Positions 15,651 through 27,781 of a stretch of 28,849 nt of DNA are shown here, one piece after another. A model generated the notes under the pieces. That model ran no database searches. It was not told where the DNA came from and worked only from the letters and a program-made list of their open reading frames with translations. The DNA comes from a virus. A program made the position numbers and the translations under genes. The stretch covers positions 1 to 28,849 of the IMG/VR virus record IMGVR_UViG_3300027963_000253. One strand, given 5' to 3'. Within the stretch, counting starts at the first letter, position 1. The number at the start of each line of letters is the position of its first letter.

Positions 15651-16019
15651 ATGAGCTTGGGGCGCCTCAACGATATTGCCATGAAACTGCGCCAGCAAAA
15701 CCAAGCTCTTTCCCTACGCCAATTAGGCGCCGCTTACGGGCTGGGTTACGTGCGGATTAAGCAAATGCGGGAACTGTCAGGCTTTCCGCTGATCGCGGGT
15801 AAGGTAATTCCGTCTGACTTTGATCAGTGGCGGATGATACGGACGACTGGCCTAAGTTCACTGCATCGCGAAGATCGTCTACGCAGTGCCGTTGGTAAAG
15901 CTCGTGAACTAAAGTCGAGGAGTGATTCACGAGTCTCATGGCGACAGATTGAGAACAGCCTGAAAGCCGCAGTCTCGTCACTCGGGTTACCCGAAGGGAA
16001 TGGAAGCAGTGACGTTTAA
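15651..16019 (+). CDS. Excisionase-like HTH protein
   Basis: The 122-residue protein has LSLRQLGAAYGLGYVRIKQM followed by FPLIAGKVIPSDFDQW, the helix-turn-helix plus wing pattern of Xis, AlpA and terminase-small-type DNA binders. That core ends near 15840. The rest overlaps the integrase gene antisense for 263 bases. ATG 15681 is an alternative start; neither has a clear Shine-Dalgarno. Beside an integrase and attP, a directionality (excision) factor is the natural role. Whether the whole C-terminal extension is used is uncertain. Confidence 0.5.
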   Translation: MSLGRLNDIAMKLRQQNQALSLRQLGAAYGLGYVRIKQMRELSGFPLIAGKVIPSDFDQWRMIRTTGLSSLHREDRLRSAVGKARELKSRSDSRVSWRQIENSLKAAVSSLGLPEGNGSSDV

Positions 16020-16857
16020 GCCCGCAAATATCCAAGAGCCTACGCCAGCAAAGCGAGGCCCGCGTGCGGGGCACTTCGCAAGTGATCTCGCGGCCCTCGG
16101 CCTTCATTCTAGCCAGCATGGGTTCGATGGCGGCCGGTATGGGAATGGAGAAGGATTTGCCAGCTCCTCCCTTGGGGCAGGGGAAGGTAAGGACGCGATT
16201 CTTCAGATCTACGCATTCAAGCGGGATTTGTGTTTCACGAAGTCTGCAGCCGGTAGCCAGGGCGATCTCAAAACTGACTCGCATCCATTCGGGCACACCT
16301 TCTACAGCCAGAGCCTTCCGGGTGATTTTAATTTCATTGTCCGAAAAGACAGGTTTTACGCGGGCTATCGGCCCCCTTTTAATTCTGTAATCCAAAAGGG
16401 CAACGGAATCCATTTTGCCAAGCAGTCGCCCTTGGCGGTGGATCCACTTCAAAATCTTCAAATCTTGGCAGGCTTGGTTCCTGCCCGCCTTGCCGCCCGA
16501 GGTGCGGGGAAGGCTTTGGCGCCACTTCAAATAAATTTCACAGTCGGATGGAGAAAACGCTTGCAGGGTTATTTTTTTTTCGATAATAAAACGCGCAAGA
16601 TGACGCCAGCAATTCCTGTAGTAAACTTTTGTCAGAGTAGAAATGGGGTGATTTTCAATCAAATCATCAACCCAGTCGTGGCCGTTATCCGTTCGCTTTT
16701 CGTTCACTCCAATTCTTGCGGCCTCAGCCGTTGCCTTTGCGCGATGCAGAGTATTGTCGATTCGGTAGCGGGTGCTTTTGCTACGCCACTTGCCTGTTGG
16801 ATCTTTGAACCGAATAAAGAACCAAGGACTACCCTTTTTAATGTAGGAATAAGCCAA
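15757..16857 (-). CDS. int: Tyrosine recombinase (phage integrase)
   Basis: The 366-residue protein shows an N-terminal arm-binding type region (YSYIKKGSPWFFIRFKDPTG), a SAM-like core-binding domain (about 60-160) and a catalytic domain with R205 in ATGCRLRE, a K near 229, H286-x-x-R289, H312 and nucleophile Y321 in HELYQRH. It joins phage and host DNA at att sites. The start is TTG 16857 because an in-frame stop lies eight codons upstream with no ATG or GTG between; poor initiation may keep levels low. The last 35 residues are low-complexity and overlap the Xis-like gene. attP lies just upstream of its start. Confidence 0.9.
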   Translation of the reverse strand: MAYSYIKKGSPWFFIRFKDPTGKWRSKSTRYRIDNTLHRAKATAEAARIGVNEKRTDNGHDWVDDLIENHPISTLTKVYYRNCWRHLARFIIEKKITLQAFSPSDCEIYLKWRQSLPRTSGGKAGRNQACQDLKILKWIHRQGRLLGKMDSVALLDYRIKRGPIARVKPVFSDNEIKITRKALAVEGVPEWMRVSFEIALATGCRLRETQIPLECVDLKNRVLTFPCPKGGAGKSFSIPIPAAIEPMLARMKAEGREITCEVPRTRASLCWRRLLDICGLKRHCFHSLRVTRVTRLRLSGCSQSVAMRLVNHSSTLVHELYQRHCVDDLRDAVNLGQSSVSSATDQSQTELPYPRSAESLTVPAFA

Positions 16858-18833: not shown

Positions 18834-18929
18834 ATGGAAATCCTATCAATCGTAGTTAAAATAATGTTACCGCTGCTAGCCGTAGCGCTCGGCCTGCAAC
18901 TCTTGCCCGCAATCGGAAGGTGGAACTGA
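18834..18929 (+). CDS. Tiny membrane peptide
   Basis: The 31-residue peptide is nearly all hydrophobic (ILSIVVKIMLPLLAVALGLQ), one membrane span. Its stop overlaps the exonuclease start as TGATG. It may be a leader for coupled translation as much as a functional peptide. Confidence 0.4.
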   Translation: MEILSIVVKIMLPLLAVALGLQLLPAIGRWN

Positions 18930-19708
18930 TGGCGCCGATCATCGTCACCGCAAAAACGGAGTCGGCTCACTACTACCTAAAGTCAGGCGAGTCGTGCCAC
19001 GGCGATCTGCGATCCGCCCGCAAGGTGGGTGCGTTTCCGTCCGTCACCACAATCCTCGGAGCGGCTGGCCCTAGTAAACAGGGGCTAATGAATTGGAAAG
19101 AGGAGCAGGCGATTCTATCCGCTTTGTCGCTACCACGGAACGATGGCGAGGCCGACAGCGACTTTGCCAAGCGTGTGGTATTGGACAGCCGCAAGGAGGT
19201 GGAGGCCGCTGCTGCCCGCGGGACTCACATTCATTCCCTAGCTGAAATCATCATTAACCGCGAGGAGCCGGGCGAGCTGGCAAAAGGATACGAGCCTCAC
19301 TTTGCATCGCTAAAGGAATGGCATAAAGAGGTCACAAAAGTTCACGCCAGTGAATCGGTGATGGTGAATGAAGCCGAAGGATACGCAGGCCGAGTGGATC
19401 TTATTTGCGACATTAACGGCGAGATCGAGGTGGTAGATTTTAAGACCCGCAAATTTAAAACAGATGCAAAAGGCGTCTCAAAAGCATCAGGCTACGAAAC
19501 CGATCTTCTTCAGCTTAGCGCCTATGCGTACGCTTTTACGGACGAGGGGATGGCTTGCCGCAACGTTCTGATCGATCCAGTCACCGGACAGTTGCAGGAG
19601 ATCCGTTACACCGCCGAGCAAGTTGCCCAGGCGTTCGATGCGTTCACGTCCATCTGCAAGGTGTGGCGCTGGCTTAAGAAGTACGACCCAAGGGAAGTGG
19701 CGGTATGA
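18929..19708 (+). CDS. RecB/Cas4-like PD-(D/E)XK exonuclease
   Basis: From ATG 18929 the protein has 259 residues (GTG 18920 is an alternative). The conserved set is visible: H102 in GTHIHSLAE, D157 in GYAGRVDLI, D170-F-K172 in VEVVDFKT, and Q195 in LLQLSAYAYA, the motif IV glutamine of RecB-type nucleases. Phage members act as 5'-3' exonucleases in recombination and DNA-end processing, normally with an SSB-type or annealing protein; the SSB-like gene is directly upstream. No iron-sulphur cysteine cluster of the Cas4 kind is visible. Confidence 0.8.
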   Translation: MAPIIVTAKTESAHYYLKSGESCHGDLRSARKVGAFPSVTTILGAAGPSKQGLMNWKEEQAILSALSLPRNDGEADSDFAKRVVLDSRKEVEAAAARGTHIHSLAEIIINREEPGELAKGYEPHFASLKEWHKEVTKVHASESVMVNEAEGYAGRVDLICDINGEIEVVDFKTRKFKTDAKGVSKASGYETDLLQLSAYAYAFTDEGMACRNVLIDPVTGQLQEIRYTAEQVAQAFDAFTSICKVWRWLKKYDPREVAV

Positions 19709-19854
19709 TTAAATGCATTGAACGGTGCTGCGATAAGGCGCTGCCATTAGTGTATGCAGGGCTGGTCTTGCTTAATGCGGCCAAGGGAAACATAGGCTGG
19801 GTTACTGCGGCGTTTTTAATTTTCTACACATTTATTTTGCGGAGGCCGCAATGA
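19705..19854 (+). CDS. Small membrane protein
   Basis: The 49-residue product has two hydrophobic stretches (LPLVYAGLVLLNA and WVTAAFLIFYTFIL) separated by a glycine/lysine turn, and a basic end, giving a likely hairpin in the membrane. It starts in ATGA and ends in ATGA, joining the exonuclease gene and the next tiny gene. No family is recognised. Confidence 0.55.
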   Translation: MIKCIERCCDKALPLVYAGLVLLNAAKGNIGWVTAAFLIFYTFILRRPQ

Positions 19855-20003
19855 TTGAGATCCTACCCGAACAATCCACCCACGAGCAGTTGCTCAACCG
19901 CGTGCGCTCGTTGGCACGTGAACTGGCCGAGGCGAAGGCTGCGCTGGCGGCTGCCGAAGGACGCGAGAACGATTTGATCGAGCGCATAAGGAGCGGGCTA
20001 TGA
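19851..20003 (+). CDS. Small coiled-coil protein
   Basis: The 50-residue product is a single alanine/glutamate/leucine-rich helix with heptad character (LLNRVRSLARELAEAKAALA). It is joined by ATGA overlaps on both sides. It could be a small regulator or an oligomerising adaptor; no family is recognised. Confidence 0.5.
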   Translation: MIEILPEQSTHEQLLNRVRSLARELAEAKAALAAAEGRENDLIERIRSGL

Positions 20004-20416
20004 GGATGCTGCTTTCGTTCATCGCTCTATTGGGATTCACAACCACAAAGCTAGGCAACGCCCTAATCGATTTGCGCCCGATCGCAAAAAAGATCGACGT
20101 GAAGAAAATTAAGGTGCGGATTACTGGTTACTGGCCGGGCGAGGACGAGTGGAGCAGCCGTTATCAATCCAGCACTGGCACCAGGTTGCGTGCTGGCCGT
20201 CACTGCGCCGTTGATCCAGACATCATTCCGCTGTGGTCAAAGATACGAGTGATGGGCGGAAAGCGTGAGTGGGTGGCAGTTGATACTGGCACTGCCGTAA
20301 AAAGCAAAAAGGCGAGCGGTGGAAAGTTGCCAGTGATCGACGTATTTGCAGCGAGTGAAAAGCAGTTTAAGGCGATGCGGTTGCCGAAGGTGGCGATGGT
20401 GGAGGTGATGAAGTGA
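20000..20416 (+). CDS. 3D-domain cell-wall enzyme (MltA-like)
   Basis: The 138-residue protein has a hydrophobic N-terminus resembling a signal (MLLSFIALLGFTTT) and the 3D domain: TGYWPG, STGTRLRAGRHCAVDPDIIP (D72), WVAVDTG (D95) and IDVFAAS (D114), the three aspartates that name the family. These domains occur in lytic transglycosylases and cell-wall remodelling proteins. Its location among replication genes, away from the lysis cassette, is unusual for a wall-active protein. It is translationally coupled on both sides (ATGA, GTGA). Confidence 0.75.
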   Translation: MRMLLSFIALLGFTTTKLGNALIDLRPIAKKIDVKKIKVRITGYWPGEDEWSSRYQSSTGTRLRAGRHCAVDPDIIPLWSKIRVMGGKREWVAVDTGTAVKSKKASGGKLPVIDVFAASEKQFKAMRLPKVAMVEVMK

Positions 20417-20694
20417 GCACAAAAGCCGCAACGTTTGCTTCTAAACGCAATCGCGCTGCGGGCCTCGGCGATACGCGGCCAACGTTGCGCCGGTTGGGCG
20501 TGATCGTTGGAATGTTGCGTCGGGATCTGACTTTGCCGAGCTGTGCCAGGTTGGGCGTTAAGCTCGAATGTAGCTACAAAACGATTCAGCGGGACATCGA
20601 TCTGCTGCGTGATTTCTTTGGCTACCCGCTGGAATACGACGCCACCAAGTACCACTACAAATTGGCGGGGCCGCTGCCGAGGGCGGTGCTGTGA
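20413..20694 (+). CDS. Winged HTH regulator
   Basis: The 93-residue protein starts at GTG 20413. Residues about 27-93 carry an N-terminal WYL/DeoR-type winged helix: RLGVIVGMLRRDLTLPSCAR, then SYKTIQRDIDLLRDFFG and a wing EYDATKYHYKL. No ligand domain follows, so it is a minimal DNA-binding protein. It sits just before the nuclease cassette and may control early transcription; its target is unknown. Confidence 0.65.
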   Translation: MSTKAATFASKRNRAAGLGDTRPTLRRLGVIVGMLRRDLTLPSCARLGVKLECSYKTIQRDIDLLRDFFGYPLEYDATKYHYKLAGPLPRAVL

Positions 20695-20819
20695 GCTTGC
20701 AGGATCTGCTCACCATGTTCTTTGGCCGCATTATCTGCACCTACACGTTAGAGCAGTACGCCGACTGTGTGCGAGAGGCCCGCGCCAATCGCCACCGTTG
20801 GGGAATAGGGCAGTGGTGA
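20691..20819 (+). CDS. Small hypothetical protein
   Basis: This 42-residue frame starts at GTG 20691 in a GTGA overlap and ends in a GTGA overlap at 20816. It contains an aromatic, hydrophobic first half (LLTMFFGRIICTYTL) and a basic second half (EARANRHRWG). No family is recognised; the two exact overlaps are the support for translation. Confidence 0.5.
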   Translation: MSLQDLLTMFFGRIICTYTLEQYADCVREARANRHRWGIGQW

Positions 20820-21889
20820 GCGTAGGATCACTAACTCAATCTTGTTTGTTTGGGGCAAATAATCAGATTTATTTTGACGCACTAATCCCTCGTCGAATTA
20901 CTCAAGAGGATGTCGCAAATGAGCTGGGAATAGGGGTAACCACAGTTGATAGGTGCCTAAAGGGAGTCGGACATCCAGACACTATAGAGTCTGTAAAACG
21001 CGTAGCTGAAAGACTGGGCTACAAAAGGGTCTATAAATGGGCGTCAATTAAAAAAGAGTTTATTAAGGGACAAGACTTAAAAGGAAGGCCAGTTATAGAC
21101 GAGCAGTCTGTTGTTATTTTAAGAAAAAGAGGAAAATCGATCAGATACATATCACAAATTAGTGGGATTTGTAAGCCGAAAATTAGTCAAATACTTAAAA
21201 TAAATGGAGAATCAACTGAAAATTTTCAGACAATAAAAGATTTTAATGGATTGTCTAAGGCGCAAAATATTGTGCTCAAAAACCTCAAAAGAGAGAAAGC
21301 TGCTTTAACGCTTGATGCTCAATTTAAAATCAGGGGATCTTGGGCAAGGAAAACAGCGGCCAAAATATTAAGGCAATATAAAAATGGGTTTTCAGTAATA
21401 AGGGCGGCTAAAAATATTTTTGTAGATAAAGGCGTTGCATTTCTGCTTGTCTACAAAACAAAGGCTTATTGGTTTATATCAAATAAACGAATTAAAATGC
21501 ACGATAGAACTGGTCCGTCTATTACTCGCACTTATTCTAGTAATTACTATGACGAAAAATCGATGCTTTGCGTTGTAGAGGAAAAGCTAAAAGAAAAATT
21601 TTATAAAGCACTCATTAGAAAGGAGGCGAACGTGGCCAGTACCTTTTACGGTAAAAACGTTCGCCATCTGCGAGCGGATTTTGTAGTAGAGCGAGACAAC
21701 ACGAAACCATTAGCTGTTGAGGTCAAAGTTTGCACCGATTGTAAGTCTATAAAAGTGCTTATGGGTCAAATCTTAATTTATAGAACATATGGTTACGACG
21801 TGCAGTGTGTTTTTCCTGATGACGTTTTTATTTCTGAATTTGCTCAGAACATGTTGAGCAAAAACAACGTCACTTATTGGACTGTATGA
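20816..21889 (+). CDS. LacI-type HTH + PD-(D/E)XK nuclease cassette gene
   Basis: From GTG 20816 the protein has 357 residues. Residues 28-69 form a LacI-type helix-turn-helix (DVANELGIGVTTVDRCLKG, then AERLGY). A second helix-turn-helix-like stretch follows (RGKSIRYISQISGICKPKIS). The middle, about 130-248, is lysine-rich and unrecognised. The C-terminus has a PD-(D/E)XK pattern: E255, D288 in RADFVV, E302-V-K304 in AVEVKV and Q318. No sugar-binding domain is present. The gene is very AT-rich (13 of 60 G/C at 21181-21240) and bounded by an 8-bp direct repeat. A mobile, homing-like or competitor-targeting endonuclease is inferred. Confidence 0.65.
   Translation: MSVGSLTQSCLFGANNQIYFDALIPRRITQEDVANELGIGVTTVDRCLKGVGHPDTIESVKRVAERLGYKRVYKWASIKKEFIKGQDLKGRPVIDEQSVVILRKRGKSIRYISQISGICKPKISQILKINGESTENFQTIKDFNGLSKAQNIVLKNLKREKAALTLDAQFKIRGSWARKTAAKILRQYKNGFSVIRAAKNIFVDKGVAFLLVYKTKAYWFISNKRIKMHDRTGPSITRTYSSNYYDEKSMLCVVEEKLKEKFYKALIRKEANVASTFYGKNVRHLRADFVVERDNTKPLAVEVKVCTDCKSIKVLMGQILIYRTYGYDVQCVFPDDVFISEFAQNMLSKNNVTYWTV
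20817..20824 (+). repeat. TGAGCGTA direct repeat, left boundary
   Basis: TGAGCGTA begins at the second base of the nuclease start codon. The identical eight bases recur at 21887, directly after the AT-rich gene, 1,070 bases away. The copies fall exactly on the start-codon overlaps of successive genes. Confidence 0.65.
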
Positions 21890-22062
21890 GCGTAAAACGC
21901 CTCGCCTGGCAAATCGAAATTCTTGAGCGGGCAAAGAAAAGCCTAGCCGACGGTCGTGTGGTCGTAACTCGCTGCCGCCTCGATTTGGCGCTGCACATTG
22001 CCAAGGAGATGCTGAAGCGGGCGCAGACGTACCAAAAGCGGGATTTGGAGAAGAAAAAATGA
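21886..22062 (+). CDS. Small basic helical protein
   Basis: The 58-residue product starts at ATG 21886 in the ATGA overlap (an upstream TTG is in frame but inside the previous gene). It is helical and basic, ending KRDLEKKK. No family is recognised. Composition returns here to the GC-rich level of the operon. Confidence 0.6.
   Translation: MSVKRLAWQIEILERAKKSLADGRVVVTRCRLDLALHIAKEMLKRAQTYQKRDLEKKK
21887..21894 (+). repeat. TGAGCGTA direct repeat, right boundary
   Basis: Second copy of the eight-base repeat, at the start of the following 58-residue gene. Removing the segment between copies would leave GTGAGCGTA at the start of this gene, overlapping the stop of the 42-residue gene, as elsewhere in this operon. 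Confidence 0.65.
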
Positions 22063-22235: not shown

Positions 22236-22423
22236 AGGATCTAGGCAAAATTACTTTTGGCAAAGCACGGCCCGCACCTAAGCAGGTTTTAGTCGACGTA
22301 ACCTATGACGCCAAGACGGCAAAGGCGTTGCACGCATTTGGGCTGAAGCAGTTAAAGAAAGATGAAGCGGCAGTAATTGAGTATGTGATTAAGAAAGCTC
22401 TGGAAGGGCTTGTAAAAAAATGA
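22232..22423 (+). CDS. Small RHH-like or hypothetical protein
   Basis: The 63-residue product from ATG 22232 has a strand-like PKQVLVDVTYDAK followed by two helices (KALHAFGLKQLKKDEAAVIE, then YVIKKALEGLVKK), a layout that could be a degenerate ribbon-helix-helix. It is coupled to the primase-helicase gene by ATGA at 22420, so it may bind DNA near replication functions. The assignment is tentative. Confidence 0.5.
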   Translation: MKDLGKITFGKARPAPKQVLVDVTYDAKTAKALHAFGLKQLKKDEAAVIEYVIKKALEGLVKK

Positions 22424-24384
22424 TTGCACTGCCCCCAGCCACCGAGGCCATTTACCACAACGGGGCGCCTGAAGGTGAGCGCAACACACAACTGTTCCGC
22501 ATGGCGTTGCAGTTCCGTGATCAAGGCTTGTCGCAGTTTGATGCGGAGTCAGAGGCCGAGATCTGGGGATTTAAGAATGGGCTAACGCAGAACGAATGCG
22601 TGGCAGCCGTAAAATCCGCTTACAGCAAGCCAGCCAGGGAGCCTTGGAGGCCGAAAGCAAAGTACGGCTATCAGAACGGGGCGATCGTTAGGGAGGATAT
22701 GCCAGTTCCACCAATGCCCATCAGCGTAGAGAGCGGGCCGGTAGATAAGTTTCTGACTACCTGTTTTGACGTGGGCGATTTCATAAATATCACAAGATCG
22801 ATTCGGGACGGCGACCGCGAGCGGCCGGACGGTGCAGGCGAGACGCGAAGCCGTGAGGAATGGCTAGAATTGTTTAAGGCCGACGGGTTGAAAGAGTGGC
22901 AGGGCGATGCAGTAGGCGTCTATGTGTCGATTAACGCTAACAATGGAAACGGACGAGCTGCAGAACACGTCACGAAATATCGGCACTGCCTAATTGAATT
23001 TGACGAAAGTACGCTGCAAGAACAGTGGGCGATTGTTAAGCGCAGTGGCCTGCCCACCTCTGCCATCATTAAGAGCGGTTCACGAAGCCTGCATGCTTTT
23101 GTTGATGTACGTGCAGCCAACGCCAAGGAGTTTGCCGAGCGTGTGGCGTTTATTTACAAGCACCTAGAGCACACAAAGCTGGATCCGGCCAACAAGGACG
23201 CCGGGCGGTTGTCCAGGTTGCCCGGTGCTATGAGGACGGCGACTGGTCAGCAGCAGGAGCTTGTCGAATGCGGTGCACCTACGCTCACGTATATTGAATG
23301 GCAGGAGCGCACGATTTACGGTGATATTCCAGAGCCGTACAAGTGGGTGGACTTGATCAATTTTAAGGAGGACGCAGATCCCACACAACTTTTAGGCAAG
23401 CGGTGGATTTGCCGTGGCGGATCGGCTTTGTGGGTGGGTAGCAGTGGCCTTGGCAAGAGCGTGCTTTGCATGCAGGCAGCGATTACCTGGGCGATTGCTG
23501 AATCATTCTTTGGAATCAACCCACACGGTGAAGGCTTGAAGTCGTTAATCATTCAAGCTGAGAACGACGAGGGAGACGTCGCCGAATCAGTTCAAGGCGT
23601 ATTTAAGGCGATGAACCTTACCGATAAGCAAAAAGAATTGGTTATGGCTAGGGTAACTATCGTGCGTGATTGCACCTCCACAGGGGAGAAGTTTGTGGAT
23701 CGGGTGCGTCGCTTAGTAGAAAAGTATAAGCCCGACCTAGTTTGGATTGATCCATTGCTTGCGTTTATCGGTGGCGACCTATCCAGCCAGGAGACGGCAA
23801 GTGCGTTCCTACGCAATATGCTTAACCCGCTATCTTTGTCGGCTGGGTTTGCTTGGATGCTCATTCATCACACGCCCAAGCCAGTTAAGGAAGGCAACGG
23901 GTATCAAGGCGCAGACAAGGCGTATAGCGGTTTCGGCTCAAGCGAGCTGACGAATTGGGCGAGGAGCGTATTAACCCTTGCGCCTTGTGGCGAGGATGCC
24001 GATGGCAAGCGTATTTACAGGCTTGAGGTAACCAAGCGCGGCAAGCGGTCTAATCTTAATTGTAAGGGCATTATAGCGCAAAACGCAGTGCAGCCTCACG
24101 CCAACCTGCGTCATAGTGATGTAGGGCTGGCGTGGATTGCTGCTGATGAGCCAGAACCCAAGACGGCTGGCAGGCCGGAGATTGTGGTTAATTTTGATGA
24201 CTACAAGCACATCGTAGCAAAGGGCATAAGTGCAGGCGATTTGCAAAGCTGCATACGCAATAAGTCGAAAGTTGGTCATACCAAGAGCCGCGACTTGACG
24301 GCGGCTTGGGAATTAGAGGGTCTGATTAAAAATACAGGCACTGAAAAGGCTAAAAAATACGTACTAAATGAGGAACAAAAATGA
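22420..24384 (+). CDS. Replicative primase-helicase (PrimPol + AAA/RecA-like)
   Basis: The 654-residue protein joins several parts. An N-terminal helical PriCT-like segment (GERNTQLFRMALQFRDQG) comes first. An archaeo-eukaryotic primase core follows, with E193-F-D195 in CLIEFDE, S223-L-H225 in SGSRSLHAF and DAGRLSRLPG (260-269). A RepA/AAA_25-type ATPase has Walker A GSSGLGKS (340-347), Walker B LVWID (440-444) and HH at 483-484. The C-terminal helical region resembles a winged helix. It would prime and unwind phage DNA. A likely iteron origin lies immediately downstream. This is the main replication protein of the operon. Confidence 0.85.
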   Translation: MIALPPATEAIYHNGAPEGERNTQLFRMALQFRDQGLSQFDAESEAEIWGFKNGLTQNECVAAVKSAYSKPAREPWRPKAKYGYQNGAIVREDMPVPPMPISVESGPVDKFLTTCFDVGDFINITRSIRDGDRERPDGAGETRSREEWLELFKADGLKEWQGDAVGVYVSINANNGNGRAAEHVTKYRHCLIEFDESTLQEQWAIVKRSGLPTSAIIKSGSRSLHAFVDVRAANAKEFAERVAFIYKHLEHTKLDPANKDAGRLSRLPGAMRTATGQQQELVECGAPTLTYIEWQERTIYGDIPEPYKWVDLINFKEDADPTQLLGKRWICRGGSALWVGSSGLGKSVLCMQAAITWAIAESFFGINPHGEGLKSLIIQAENDEGDVAESVQGVFKAMNLTDKQKELVMARVTIVRDCTSTGEKFVDRVRRLVEKYKPDLVWIDPLLAFIGGDLSSQETASAFLRNMLNPLSLSAGFAWMLIHHTPKPVKEGNGYQGADKAYSGFGSSELTNWARSVLTLAPCGEDADGKRIYRLEVTKRGKRSNLNCKGIIAQNAVQPHANLRHSDVGLAWIAADEPEPKTAGRPEIVVNFDDYKHIVAKGISAGDLQSCIRNKSKVGHTKSRDLTAAWELEGLIKNTGTEKAKKYVLNEEQK

Positions 24385-24539
24385 GCCTAAAAAGCCTATC
24401 ACCACTTATTCATGTTCTATCACCGTTAATTGGTAGAACGCCTATTGATGGATATCCCCCCTTTAAGGGGATATCCATTAATAGGGTTCGATGTTTCCAT
24501 CCATTGACCATCGATAGGGGCGATTTCCGTTCATTATGA
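24381..24539 (+). CDS. Small ORF across the putative origin
   Basis: A 52-residue frame starts in an ATGA overlap with the primase-helicase stop and ends in an ATGA overlap with the next gene, spanning the iterons and hairpin. The sequence (with IDGYPPFKGISINR at the hairpin) has no recognised domain. The open frame may simply let ribosomes cross the origin and keep coupling intact. Translation is plausible, function unproved. Confidence 0.35.
   Translation: MSLKSLSPLIHVLSPLIGRTPIDGYPPFKGISINRVRCFHPLTIDRGDFRSL
24395..24518. other. ori: Putative replication origin with iterons
   Basis: Five related elements with consensus ending in YRATAGG lie here. On the minus strand: 24395-24403, 24416-24424 (CTATCACC seen on plus, 21 bases apart) and 24441-24451. 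On the plus strand: 24475-24485 and 24508-24518 (CCATYRATAGG). The last three share eleven positions. They flank a long hairpin and follow directly on the primase-helicase gene, the usual place for an iteron origin. An operator for the downstream HTH gene is the alternative. Confidence 0.55.
24441..24485. repeat. Long inverted repeat (19-bp arms)
   Basis: CCTATTGATGGATATCCCC pairs with the complementary arm at 24467-24485 with one G-T wobble, around a seven-base loop CCTTTAA. The arms include two of the iteron copies facing each other. It could extrude as a cruciform or fold in RNA. There is no T-run, so it is not a standard terminator. Confidence 0.8.
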
Positions 24540-25027
24540 TTGACCAACAAATGCTAGAAAGAATCCCCTGCGGTTCGGCCCACATTTCCACCCGAATTGA
24601 TGGGATAGCGGATCTAGTCCATGAGGCTTTTTATGAACTGGGTCTGACTGTTACAACGTCCTCAGTGGCTTTGACCACTCAGGTGTTCCATTACCTTATC
24701 ACTAAAGCGCCAGACCATCCTGCGGTTCAGAACATGGCCGATACGCTGGAACAGTCTGTGCTGGCTGTTGTGCTTAACAGATCGACTAAGTCTATGACCC
24801 AGCTGGCTAAAGAGCACAAGATAACTAAACAGGCGTTTAGTAAGAGGGTGTTAGGGCTAACCGATCGCCTTGGGTTGCCTGTCAGAGCGCAGAAAAGTCA
24901 GAAGGCCCGTGAGGCATACGATCTCAGGGCAAGGAAGCACCACGACAAGCGGCGTCGTCAAATTCCTAAGTTTAACAATGCCGCACTATTGAAAGGCAGG
25001 GACAGATGCAAGAACTCAAAGAAGTAA
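24536..25027 (+). CDS. HTH DNA-binding protein (sigma region 4-like)
   Basis: The 163-residue protein has a helical N-terminal half and a C-terminal helix-turn-helix: NRSTKSMTQLAKEHKITKQA, then FSKRVLGLTDRLG, followed by a strongly basic tail (ARKHHDKRRRQ). The pattern fits a sigma-like or antiterminator/late-activator protein. It starts at ATG 24536 in an ATGA overlap and lies between the origin and the packaging genes, a good place for a late-gene activator. No specific family is recognised. Confidence 0.6.
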   Translation: MIDQQMLERIPCGSAHISTRIDGIADLVHEAFYELGLTVTTSSVALTTQVFHYLITKAPDHPAVQNMADTLEQSVLAVVLNRSTKSMTQLAKEHKITKQAFSKRVLGLTDRLGLPVRAQKSQKAREAYDLRARKHHDKRRRQIPKFNNAALLKGRDRCKNSKK

Positions 25028-25565: not shown

Positions 25566-26045
25566 ATGGGTAGGCCAGTTAATCACGACGTAAAGAGGGC
25601 GATGGCCGCCACGGGTAAATCCCGTGCCACCGTCTATTTACAGCGCAAGAAGGTGGAGGCCCAGCCGCTCGTAAAGGCCAAGGGCGGCGGGCTGGACGTC
25701 GAGATCCAGCGACTTGAGGATCTGGCTGCGAGCCTGGGCGAATCAGCAAAGGACGACACGCGAGCCGACCGCTCCGAGTTGATTAGCAACTACACAAAGC
25801 TGGTTGAGGCGTTGCGTAGAATGAAAGGCGACCGGCCAGACATCGACCAAGCAGAGGGCACGATGGTGCCAGTAGACGAGGCCGACAAGGTACTGGCCGG
25901 AAGGGATAACGCACTTGTCCCGCTACTTAAAGGAATGGCAAAGCGGTTGGCCCCGATCTGCGCAAATCGCCCAGCAGTTGAGGTAGAGGCTGAAGTTGAA
26001 AACGAAGTCGGGCAGATCATGCGCCAGGTTGAGGCAGCTCTGTGA
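25566..26045 (+). CDS. Small terminase subunit candidate
   Basis: From ATG 25566 the product has 159 residues (TTG 25557 would add three). The N-terminus MGRPVNHDVKRAMAATGKSR with ATVYLQRKK is a small helix-turn-helix for DNA recognition. A long helical region follows (LEDLAASLGESAKDD, LISNYTKLVEALRRM), and the acidic C-terminal helix could contact the large subunit. It overlaps the large terminase start as GTGA. Position and layout fit the DNA-recognition subunit of the packaging motor, so cos or pac should lie nearby. No Shine-Dalgarno is obvious. Confidence 0.65.
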   Translation: MGRPVNHDVKRAMAATGKSRATVYLQRKKVEAQPLVKAKGGGLDVEIQRLEDLAASLGESAKDDTRADRSELISNYTKLVEALRRMKGDRPDIDQAEGTMVPVDEADKVLAGRDNALVPLLKGMAKRLAPICANRPAVEVEAEVENEVGQIMRQVEAAL

Positions 26046-27781
26046 GCAAGGCTCAAGAGGAGCTACGCCGACGAGCACGGATCCGCTGGCACTACGAAAA
26101 GCCGCCAGGGGTGATCGAGTGGGCGGAGCGAAACATTCAGCTAGATAGCAGGCTGACGGCTCGGCCGGGTTTATATAACACAACGTGGACGCCTTACGTG
26201 CGGGGCGTACTGGAAGCACTAGCCGATCCTGGCGTTCACACAGTCACGCTTTGCTGGGGATCGCAGACAGGCAAGACGCTGACGCTGGCCATCTGGCTGG
26301 CGTATAGAATTGCGAACGATCCGGCTCCGGCGTTGCTGGTCATGCCTAACGCTGATCTTGCTAGGTCATACAGCGAGACGCGACTGACTCCGATTTTTGA
26401 AAAGTGCAAGCCTGTGAAGCGACTATTCCCGCAAGACATGGACGACCTAAAGATTTTGGAAATGCAGTTTGCGACCATGACTCTTTCCCTAGTCGGATCA
26501 AATAGCCCGGCAAACTTAAGCTCACGCCCGATTTGCATAGCCGTGCTGGACGAGCTGGATTCCTTTGCAACTCCATCCGAAAAAGATGCGGCCGCCTACT
26601 CTCTGGCGTTGGAACGGACAAAGGCGTTCCCGCAACGCAAGCACGTACTGACTTCAACGCCAACGTTGAACACCGGCGATATCTGGATCAATTACCAAGC
26701 TGGGACACAGGAGACTTTTCACGTCCCTTGCCATGCGTGCGGGGAATATCAAGCGATGGAGTTTGGGCAGATCCGATGGGATGAAAGCGCACGATCAGAG
26801 GATGGCAAGTGGGACATGCGAAAGGTAACTGAAACAGCCGCCTACCACTGCACCAAGTGCGACGCACCGTGGAGTGAACGCAATCGCCGCCAGTCGATCG
26901 AGCAGGGTAAATGGGTGGCGGCAAACGCAAGCTCGGAGGCTGGCCGTCGATCGTTCCGCCTGCCGAGCTGGTACTCCCCGACGATCACCTTTGCGGATTG
27001 CGCCAAAAAGTTTCTAACTGAAAAGCATTATCTGCACGGCTTGCAAGGATGGGTGAACGGCTGGAGCGCGATGCCGTGGGAGGATCAGTTTGACGACAAC
27101 GAGCTGAACAATATCCCGCCAGGAGCCTTTGCCAAAAAGCAGGAATGGGAAACGGATCACATTAAGCTGGCCGCAATCGACAGGCAGATCGACGAGTTTT
27201 GGTTCGTGGTGCGTGCGTTTGCCAGGGACGGATCCAGCCGACTAATTGAAGAAGGCCGCCGGCGAACGATTGAGGACGTGGCTCACACATTGGCAGAGCT
27301 GGGCGTGAAGAACATTCACGCCTGCATCGACTCAGGCTACGAAACTCAAGACACCTACCGCATCGCCGCGCGGTACGGATGGACGGCGATCAAGGGTGAG
27401 GAGCGCCAGTACTATTATATTGAGGGGCAAGCAGGGCGCATGAAGTCGGTGCACAGCTCGGATCAGCCAACGGACGCAGGCTGTCGTCTGCTACTTCTCA
27501 GCTCACCGGCCTGCCAAGATTTGCTGGCTTGGTTGCGGAGAGGGCAAGGGCCGATCTGGGAAGTAGCCCATGACGTCAGCCCAGATTATCGAGAGCACAT
27601 GGCCAGCCATAGGAAGGCGCATCGGATTAACCGCAAGACTGGCAAGGACGTTTATGAGTGGATTAGGGTAAAGGGCAGGCAGGATCATTTATACGATTGC
27701 GAAACCTACCTGGCTGGATTTGCAGTGTGGGGTAAGGTGATTCAGGCGGAAGCAGCGATGACGCAAGACGCGAAGGTATGA
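26042..27781 (+). CDS. Large terminase subunit, lambda gpA family
   Basis: The 579-residue protein has Walker A GSQTGKT (73-79), Walker B IAVLDE with D170-E171, the coupling motif region TSTPT (205-209), and a zinc-finger-like CHAC...CTKC (C230, C233, C270, C273) typical of gpA-type terminases. The C-terminal nuclease region includes IHACIDSGYETQDTYRI. It cuts concatemers and pumps DNA into the prohead using ATP. The start is GTG 26042 within GTGA. The family generally cuts at cos sites, which suggests cohesive ends. Confidence 0.92.
   Translation: MSKAQEELRRRARIRWHYEKPPGVIEWAERNIQLDSRLTARPGLYNTTWTPYVRGVLEALADPGVHTVTLCWGSQTGKTLTLAIWLAYRIANDPAPALLVMPNADLARSYSETRLTPIFEKCKPVKRLFPQDMDDLKILEMQFATMTLSLVGSNSPANLSSRPICIAVLDELDSFATPSEKDAAAYSLALERTKAFPQRKHVLTSTPTLNTGDIWINYQAGTQETFHVPCHACGEYQAMEFGQIRWDESARSEDGKWDMRKVTETAAYHCTKCDAPWSERNRRQSIEQGKWVAANASSEAGRRSFRLPSWYSPTITFADCAKKFLTEKHYLHGLQGWVNGWSAMPWEDQFDDNELNNIPPGAFAKKQEWETDHIKLAAIDRQIDEFWFVVRAFARDGSSRLIEEGRRRTIEDVAHTLAELGVKNIHACIDSGYETQDTYRIAARYGWTAIKGEERQYYYIEGQAGRMKSVHSSDQPTDAGCRLLLLSSPACQDLLAWLRRGQGPIWEVAHDVSPDYREHMASHRKAHRINRKTGKDVYEWIRVKGRQDHLYDCETYLAGFAVWGKVIQAEAAMTQDAKV

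Follow-up and report, generated by a model that had tools for sequence, protein, structure and literature searches.

How does an AT-rich gene come to lie between two phage genes and share a four-base stop-start overlap with both of them? The question is raised by a predicted nuclease gene (20816-21889, + strand, GTG start) in the IMG/VR virus record IMGVR_UViG_3300027963_000253, of which we analyzed positions 1 to 28,849 (28,849 nt; hereafter, the window). The window also carries an integrase (15757-16857, minus strand) and a terminase (26042-27781), and the phage is therefore of temperate type. An initial annotation had described the gene as a mobile cassette bounded by an 8-bp direct repeat. 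We found that the interval it fills, between a 42-amino acid (aa) core gene (20691-20819, + strand) and a 58-aa core gene (21886-22062, + strand), forms a single precise slot within an early operon that belongs to a temperate-type phage family and that at least 19 unrelated kinds of occupant, the nuclease among them, are found there. The initial observation is real but understated: the slot itself is the unit here, with the nuclease as a single allele of it.

An Empty or Filled Slot with Constant Borders

Relatives were drawn from IMG/VR through the downstream primase/helicase (22420-24384, + strand), which served as the backbone marker and gave 80 loci, and through a second scan of IMG/VR with the left border of the slot as a DNA pattern, which gave at least the matches listed. 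Junction totals pool both routes after removal of duplicates, with both flanking genes required, and all figures are among the matches listed. Because the second search selected on the left border, rates and border conservation were taken from the 66 loci found by the helicase alone. The junction of the 42-aa and 58-aa genes was recovered in at least 132 nonredundant relatives: 44 are empty, 3 carry 8 bp, and 85 are filled by inserts of 224-1,835 bp. The helicase-found subset (n = 66) comprises 25 empty and 41 filled junctions. All 44 empty junctions have the exact GTGA overlap and zero insert, so that the empty site foreseen by the initial annotation exists in at least 44 relatives with exactly the predicted overlap. 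Its proposal that removal of the gene would restore the junction also held, since joining the window’s flanks at the repeat gives CGTTGGGGAATAGGGCAGTGGTGAGCGTAAAACG, which is 2-6 mismatches per 34 bases from the natural empty junctions. The four-base overlaps at both flanking genes were likewise confirmed, the TGA of the 42-aa gene overlapping the GTG start of the cargo. In the 66-locus set, the 58-aa gene of every empty allele begins with GTGAGC or GTGAGT, drawn from the TGGTGA end of the 42-aa gene, and in every filled allele it begins with ATG. The three 8-bp junctions (L121, L134, and L179) have spacers (TAATNGCATG) in place of the overlap, and these look like remnants of lost TAA-type cargo.

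The slot lies between two short borders that are constant across relatives. The left border, delimited by codon entropy, consists of the final six codons of the 42-aa gene (20799-20816, + strand; TGGGGAATAGGGCAGTGG in the window, consensus TGGGGAATGGGGCAGTGG), and the right border is the start of the 58-aa gene (21886-21899, + strand; ATGAGCGTAAAACG in the window), with the general form ATG(AGC/TCN)GTAAA(A/G)CG. Entropy in the left-border codons is 0-0.2 bits, including 0.1-0.2 at fourfold positions, and the preceding arginine codon is almost random at ∼2.0 bits; relative synonymous entropy is 0.09 in the left border vs. 0.49 elsewhere in the 42-aa gene. The GTG within TGGTGA serves most families as the start codon of the cargo; in some families, the 42-aa gene instead terminates in TAG or TAA, and the cargo begins 7-48 bases further on. 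Of the 85 alleles, 35, including that of the window, end their cargo at the TGA of ATGA and 28 at the TAA inside GTAAA (codons 3-4 of the 58-aa gene), and the second (serine) codon of the 58-aa gene toggles between AGC and TCN according to the stop type. The borders, therefore, donate start and stop codons to whatever cargo enters, and this sharing with the neighbors suggests that the cargo depends on the operon.

Slot contents are exchanged horizontally between backbones. On the helicase tree, the slot allele requires 81 changes compared with 80.3 after shuffling, which is no phylogenetic signal, whereas the types of the 58-aa gene follow the tree (13 changes vs. 60.5 shuffled) and those of the 42-aa gene also retain signal (37 vs. 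55.3). The two flanking genes share 0.77 bits of type information (0/1000 shuffles as high), but the slot allele is unlinked to the 42-aa gene (299/1000) and at most weakly linked to the 58-aa gene (35/1000). Among pairs with helicases at least 90% identical, 409 of 500 differ in slot state. The near-isogenic loci L134 and L156, with helicases 99.8% identical, carry an 8-bp scar and a 601-bp cargo of family C2, respectively; their identity of 99.8% over 3,206 bp starts a few bases into the 58-aa gene, directly after the switched serine codon. Conversely, L109 and L147 have cargos that are 99.7% identical next to helicases at 71% and a 138-aa gene at 88%. In three divergent pairs that share cargo (L022/L070, L002/L005, and L063/L127), the 21 bp immediately upstream of the cargo match at 0.90-1.0 and the 21 bp beyond them at 0.43-0.62, with a comparable fall downstream. 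These pairs and L134/L156 place the exchange breakpoints in the boundary, and the shared tracts end within ∼21 bp of the cargo. Co-conversion beyond that distance was not seen in divergent pairs, and similar pairs are uninformative on this point. Identical alleles with identical flanks recur across independent samples (for example, L072/L073/L074, L037/L038, and L044/L056). The reality of the slot is strongly supported, and the evidence that its contents are exchanged at the short borders is unusually clean.

Cargo Families and the Nuclease Occupant

Clustering of the 85 cargos with blastn and tblastx yields 19 groups (24 by DNA alone), and the cargo frames are open in 85 of 85. An apparent class of gene-less or degenerate inserts was rejected: these frames extend into the 58-aa gene and end at GTAAA, and the open reading frame search had been cut at the border. 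Mean guanine-cytosine (GC) content is 0.388 in cargo vs. 0.568 in the flanking genes, and cargo is lower in 85 of 85. Family C14 matches PDDEXK_5 (Pfam, E = 6.8e-16), C17 is GIY-YIG-like at E = 0.0014, which is under the Pfam cut-off, and C9 (HNH-like) and C7, C10, C12, and C15 (PD-(D/E)XK-like) were assigned from conserved motifs only. C4 is a DUF4326 protein with a partner gene, and in C8 a methyltransferase (MT-A70 or Dam-type) precedes a second gene that varies among alleles. PADLOC models matched the C8 methyltransferase and, as candidate-defense-like, C4 (PDC-M19B, E = 4.6e-7); most cargos gave no assignment, and many families have no annotation. The commonest cargo, C1 (98 aa), had no family match, and its structure model was too poor to use (mean predicted local distance difference test, pLDDT, 50). 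The slot marks a candidate weapon store of the phage family, with PD-(D/E)XK, HNH-like, and GIY-YIG-like nucleases and methyltransferase-nuclease pairs. Five C8 alleles (L026, L048, L088, L155, and L161) have an N-terminal region in common but differ in the DNA methyltransferase fused to it (MT-A70 or Dam) and in the second gene, an arrangement that resembles reshuffled restriction-modification pairs. Family C5 (L037, L076, L092, L125, and L174) is ∼49% identical to one of the core genes that follow the helicase; in the window, this is apparently the 163-aa gene (24536-25027).

The window’s own occupant belongs to family C3, which consists of this gene, six other nonredundant alleles (proteins 28-65% identical), and the truncated L084. 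Its GC content is 37.1% with 0.32 at third codon positions (GC3), and its neighbors have 0.45-0.60 and 0.46-0.74; these per-gene values bear out the initial claim that it is more AT-rich than its surroundings, and the two counts given for that claim (13/60 at 21181-21240 and 37/60 at 19861-19920) are exact. In the 357-aa protein, three helix-turn-helix (HTH) modules are combined with a predicted PD-(D/E)XK nuclease domain at the C terminus (residues 247-357; 21554-21886, + strand). The first module (residues about 25-70; 20888-21025, + strand), located by Pfam HTH matches, is LacI-like, and its predicted structure fits a LacI-family DNA-binding domain at 0.9 Å across 47 columns. The predicted C-terminal fold is akin to EndoMS/NucS-type and PspGI PD-(D/E)XK nucleases; given a mean pLDDT of 75.6 and Foldseek E values of about 0.001-0.006, the superfamily assignment rests on fold and motif. 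D288, E302, K304, and Q318 are invariant across seven homologs. DNA identity between the window gene and L002 is 0.83-0.98 over the first 450 bp, then 0.49-0.52, and then 0.67-0.77, and on this comparison, the nuclease gene is internally mosaic. Between the nuclease genes of L028 and L044, divergence is greatest in the first 90 bp.

The occupant combines a predicted site-specific nuclease architecture with presence or absence at one site among close relatives, and it is plausibly of the free-standing homing-endonuclease type; DNA cutting, including that of the empty allele, is predicted from fold and motifs. It could act by homing on the empty allele, as a weapon against other phages, or as a restriction-like enzyme. 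The initial annotation had expected the same nuclease at other overlap sites, but among the matches listed in IMG/VR, its family was seen in this slot only. The idea of a mobile cassette that enters at stop-start overlaps, therefore, holds as a rule for the operon, where seven junctions receive inserts, and not for a roaming nuclease. Known phage records contained no relative of the nuclease and only distant helicases, and INPHARED gave no DNA match. Two scans of GTDB genomes for prophage hosts found none, although their pattern step limits sensitivity and absence is not shown.

How Cargo Is Exchanged

We assign a probability of roughly 0.78 to an allelic cargo slot, in which one of many unrelated modules, or none, would occupy the interval between the two short constant borders and be swapped by recombination inside them. 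Swaps would take place between coinfecting phages, or between a phage and a prophage, and would leave the flanking genes untouched. The two borders would together act as a translation socket, in which the left one offers a Shine-Dalgarno-like G-rich stretch and the GTG start from TGGTGA and the right one supplies the stop, so that each swap stays translationally coupled. The phage’s own exonuclease-based recombination probably performs the swap; a recombination-type exonuclease (18920-19708, + strand; phrog_298 exonuclease, E = 4.7e-28) is the candidate partner. Conservation of the borders may serve recombination as well as translation.

The 8-bp repeat takes a different meaning under an allelic slot. 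TGAGCGTA occurs, as initially reported, at 20817-20824, where it forms the cargo’s first codons and copies the start of the empty junction, and at 21887-21894, the start of the 58-aa gene (both + strand). A third copy lies on the minus strand at 23280; chance alone would give 0.74 copies, and three copies were reached in 3 of 100 shuffles. Among the 85 filled alleles, the exact 8-mer is confined to the window lineage; the border repeat varies from 1 to 8 bases and is a single base in 23 of 85. Cargos that begin with GTGAGYGT, a copy of the empty junction, are, however, far commoner than chance: the 62 filled alleles of TGA type include 22 of them, spread over 8 of 16 unrelated families, whereas this form is seen at 1 of 138 native overlap starts and in 0 of 49 inserts at the remaining junctions. 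Including GYGT, the shared tract on the left is ∼25 bases, close to the pairing length of 23-27 reported for Red-beta (PMC3945230). We favor the reading that the repeat marks a left crossover with an empty allele, through which the cargo would have taken its first codons from the junction. Of the two origins suggested in the initial annotation, microhomology thus gains from the excess of GTGAGYGT starts over controls, and target duplication loses with the variable repeat length.

That variation refutes target-site duplication as a general mechanism, and a transposon-like insertion with an 8-bp duplication, which would account for the exact repeat in the window, is hardly credible: the full 8 bp is seen in one lineage, and no transposase or recombinase was found among the representative cargos scanned with Pfam. 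Nearly as remote is the notion that the alleles are assembly chimeras joined at a short border common to many phages in mixed samples, because the same allele and flanks come from contigs of independent samples, with perfect reading frames throughout. Self-spreading homing endonucleases deserve more weight but still seem to us unlikely as the driver. On this view, nuclease cargos would cleave empty alleles in or close to the slot and enter as the break is repaired by copying, and other cargos would ride along or have come later. About nine of the 19 families are nuclease-like, in three superfamilies (C3 by fold and motif, C14, C17 below the cut-off, and others by motif only), and free-standing endonucleases of T4 overlap upstream genes, with SegH and Hef replacing mobC and mobE (PMC2988022). 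Yet the non-nuclease cargos C1, C6, C11, and C4 are exchanged just as widely across divergent backbones, so that exchange is independent of the nuclease; divergent pairs show no co-conversion past about 21 bp, and none of the 85 open cargos shows the decay typical of homing genes. Illegitimate recombination followed by selection is improbable. Insertions would land anywhere, and survivors would keep all genes and their coupling, so that borders only look precise; this agrees with insertions at six other junctions and with the dense coding of all of them, where any other position would break a gene. Against it, the two flanks remain linked to each other, and cargo families recur in the same slot on divergent backbones; nearly all of them, C19 excepted, went unseen at the other junctions of these loci, a pattern that points to allelic exchange at the slot.

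A narrower doubt concerns the left border, which might be solely a ribosome-binding and coupling signal with no part in exchange. Other operon gene ends trend the same way, more weakly: three have reduced synonymous entropy (0.29-0.34 vs. 0.44-0.59), two others stand at 0.51-0.52, and the end of the 62-aa gene gives 0.13 over three codons only. Codons are more strongly fixed in the left border than at any other gene end compared; this border lies at the busiest site, and it stays intact in TAG- and TAA-type alleles whose cargo starts 7-48 bases downstream; a purely translational role is, therefore, doubtful. Several points nonetheless weigh against recombination within the borders. The reduced variation at other gene ends means that ribosome binding explains part of the left border’s constancy, and in these data the two roles are not separable. 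The left border, at 18-25 bp, is at or below the reported minimal pairing lengths (23-27 for Red-beta and 31-34 for RecA; PMC3945230), the right border is shorter, and no annealing protein was identified among the window genes. Moreover, all loci are metagenomic contigs, and exchange is read from their comparison. We propose only tentatively that the borders are an evolved recombination-and-translation socket, kept constant by repeated exchange and able to give whatever frame enters the operon its start and stop, through which the family would share a single nuclease-rich pool of interchangeable modules for use against competitors or hosts.

The Wider Operon and Known Systems

Inserts occur at seven stop-start overlaps of the operon, the main slot and six others; the overlap-entry rule holds operon-wide, and most cargos are specific to one slot. 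The second busiest site is the junction between a 93-aa core gene with an HTH (20413-20694, + strand) and the 42-aa gene (window position 20691), which is empty in the window and filled in 31 of 121 relatives by inserts of mostly 182-620 bp and lower GC content. C19 was found both in the main slot and at the junction of the 50-aa and 138-aa genes. The 49-aa gene (19705-19854, + strand) is a small insert of 146 bp at the junction of the exonuclease and the 50-aa gene; beyond the window lineage, it is common only to L029, and most relatives join the two genes directly. Four relatives (L014, L076, L078, and L106) have a 323-aa protein at the overlap of the 62-aa gene and the helicase, with a CxxxCxxC motif resembling radical SAM enzymes. 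In many relatives, similarity of the helicase C terminus ends near residue 592-596, which suggests that its last 60 residues are exchanged separately.

The slot extends known phage hotspots and boundary-sequence mosaicism. Since the 1970s, it has been debated whether mosaicism arises through homologous exchange at short boundaries or through illegitimate joins that selection then filters, and the matter is unsettled because shared boundaries are rarely found (PMC3029335). One slot with more than 100 natural alleles, constant borders, unlinked cargo, and linked flanks makes the question testable on a single short sequence.

Our locus, where unrelated genes replace one another at a high rate between conserved neighbors, resembles the small, rapidly changing hotspots that lie between two conserved genes in P2-like phages and P4-like satellites, but those are described as antiviral reservoirs of about 1-5 kb (PMC9122126), whereas here a typically one-gene slot lies among overlapping genes and cargo roles are read from sequence. 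The seg and mob endonucleases of T-even phages likewise sit between conserved genes, some overlapping the upstream gene, and replace one another in place (PMC2988022); here, non-nuclease and empty alleles share the slot, long co-conversion was not seen, and the occupant is a predicted PD-(D/E)XK enzyme rather than GIY-YIG or HNH as in T4. In ICP1 and other phages, variable nuclease genes mark regions where DNA is exchanged, but they flank large (>10 kb) regions (PMC10448857), and here the nuclease is itself the exchanged cargo. Rad52-like relaxed recombination between temperate phages and prophages is a candidate mechanism over short or diverged homology (PMC3945230), although no Rad52-like or other annealing protein was identified in the window and the borders do not exceed the pairing lengths that have been measured. 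A comparison in form may also be made with lambdoid linker sequences (Susskind and Botstein 1978; Clark et al. 2001, as cited in PMC3029335), described as short shared sequences between which nonhomologous modules alternate and as proposed sites of homologous exchange. Our locus, too, keeps a short sequence on both sides of nonhomologous alternatives; it differs in that a single slot has at least 132 alleles, its cargo is unlinked from flanks that are themselves linked, and its borders also serve as donors of start and stop codons.
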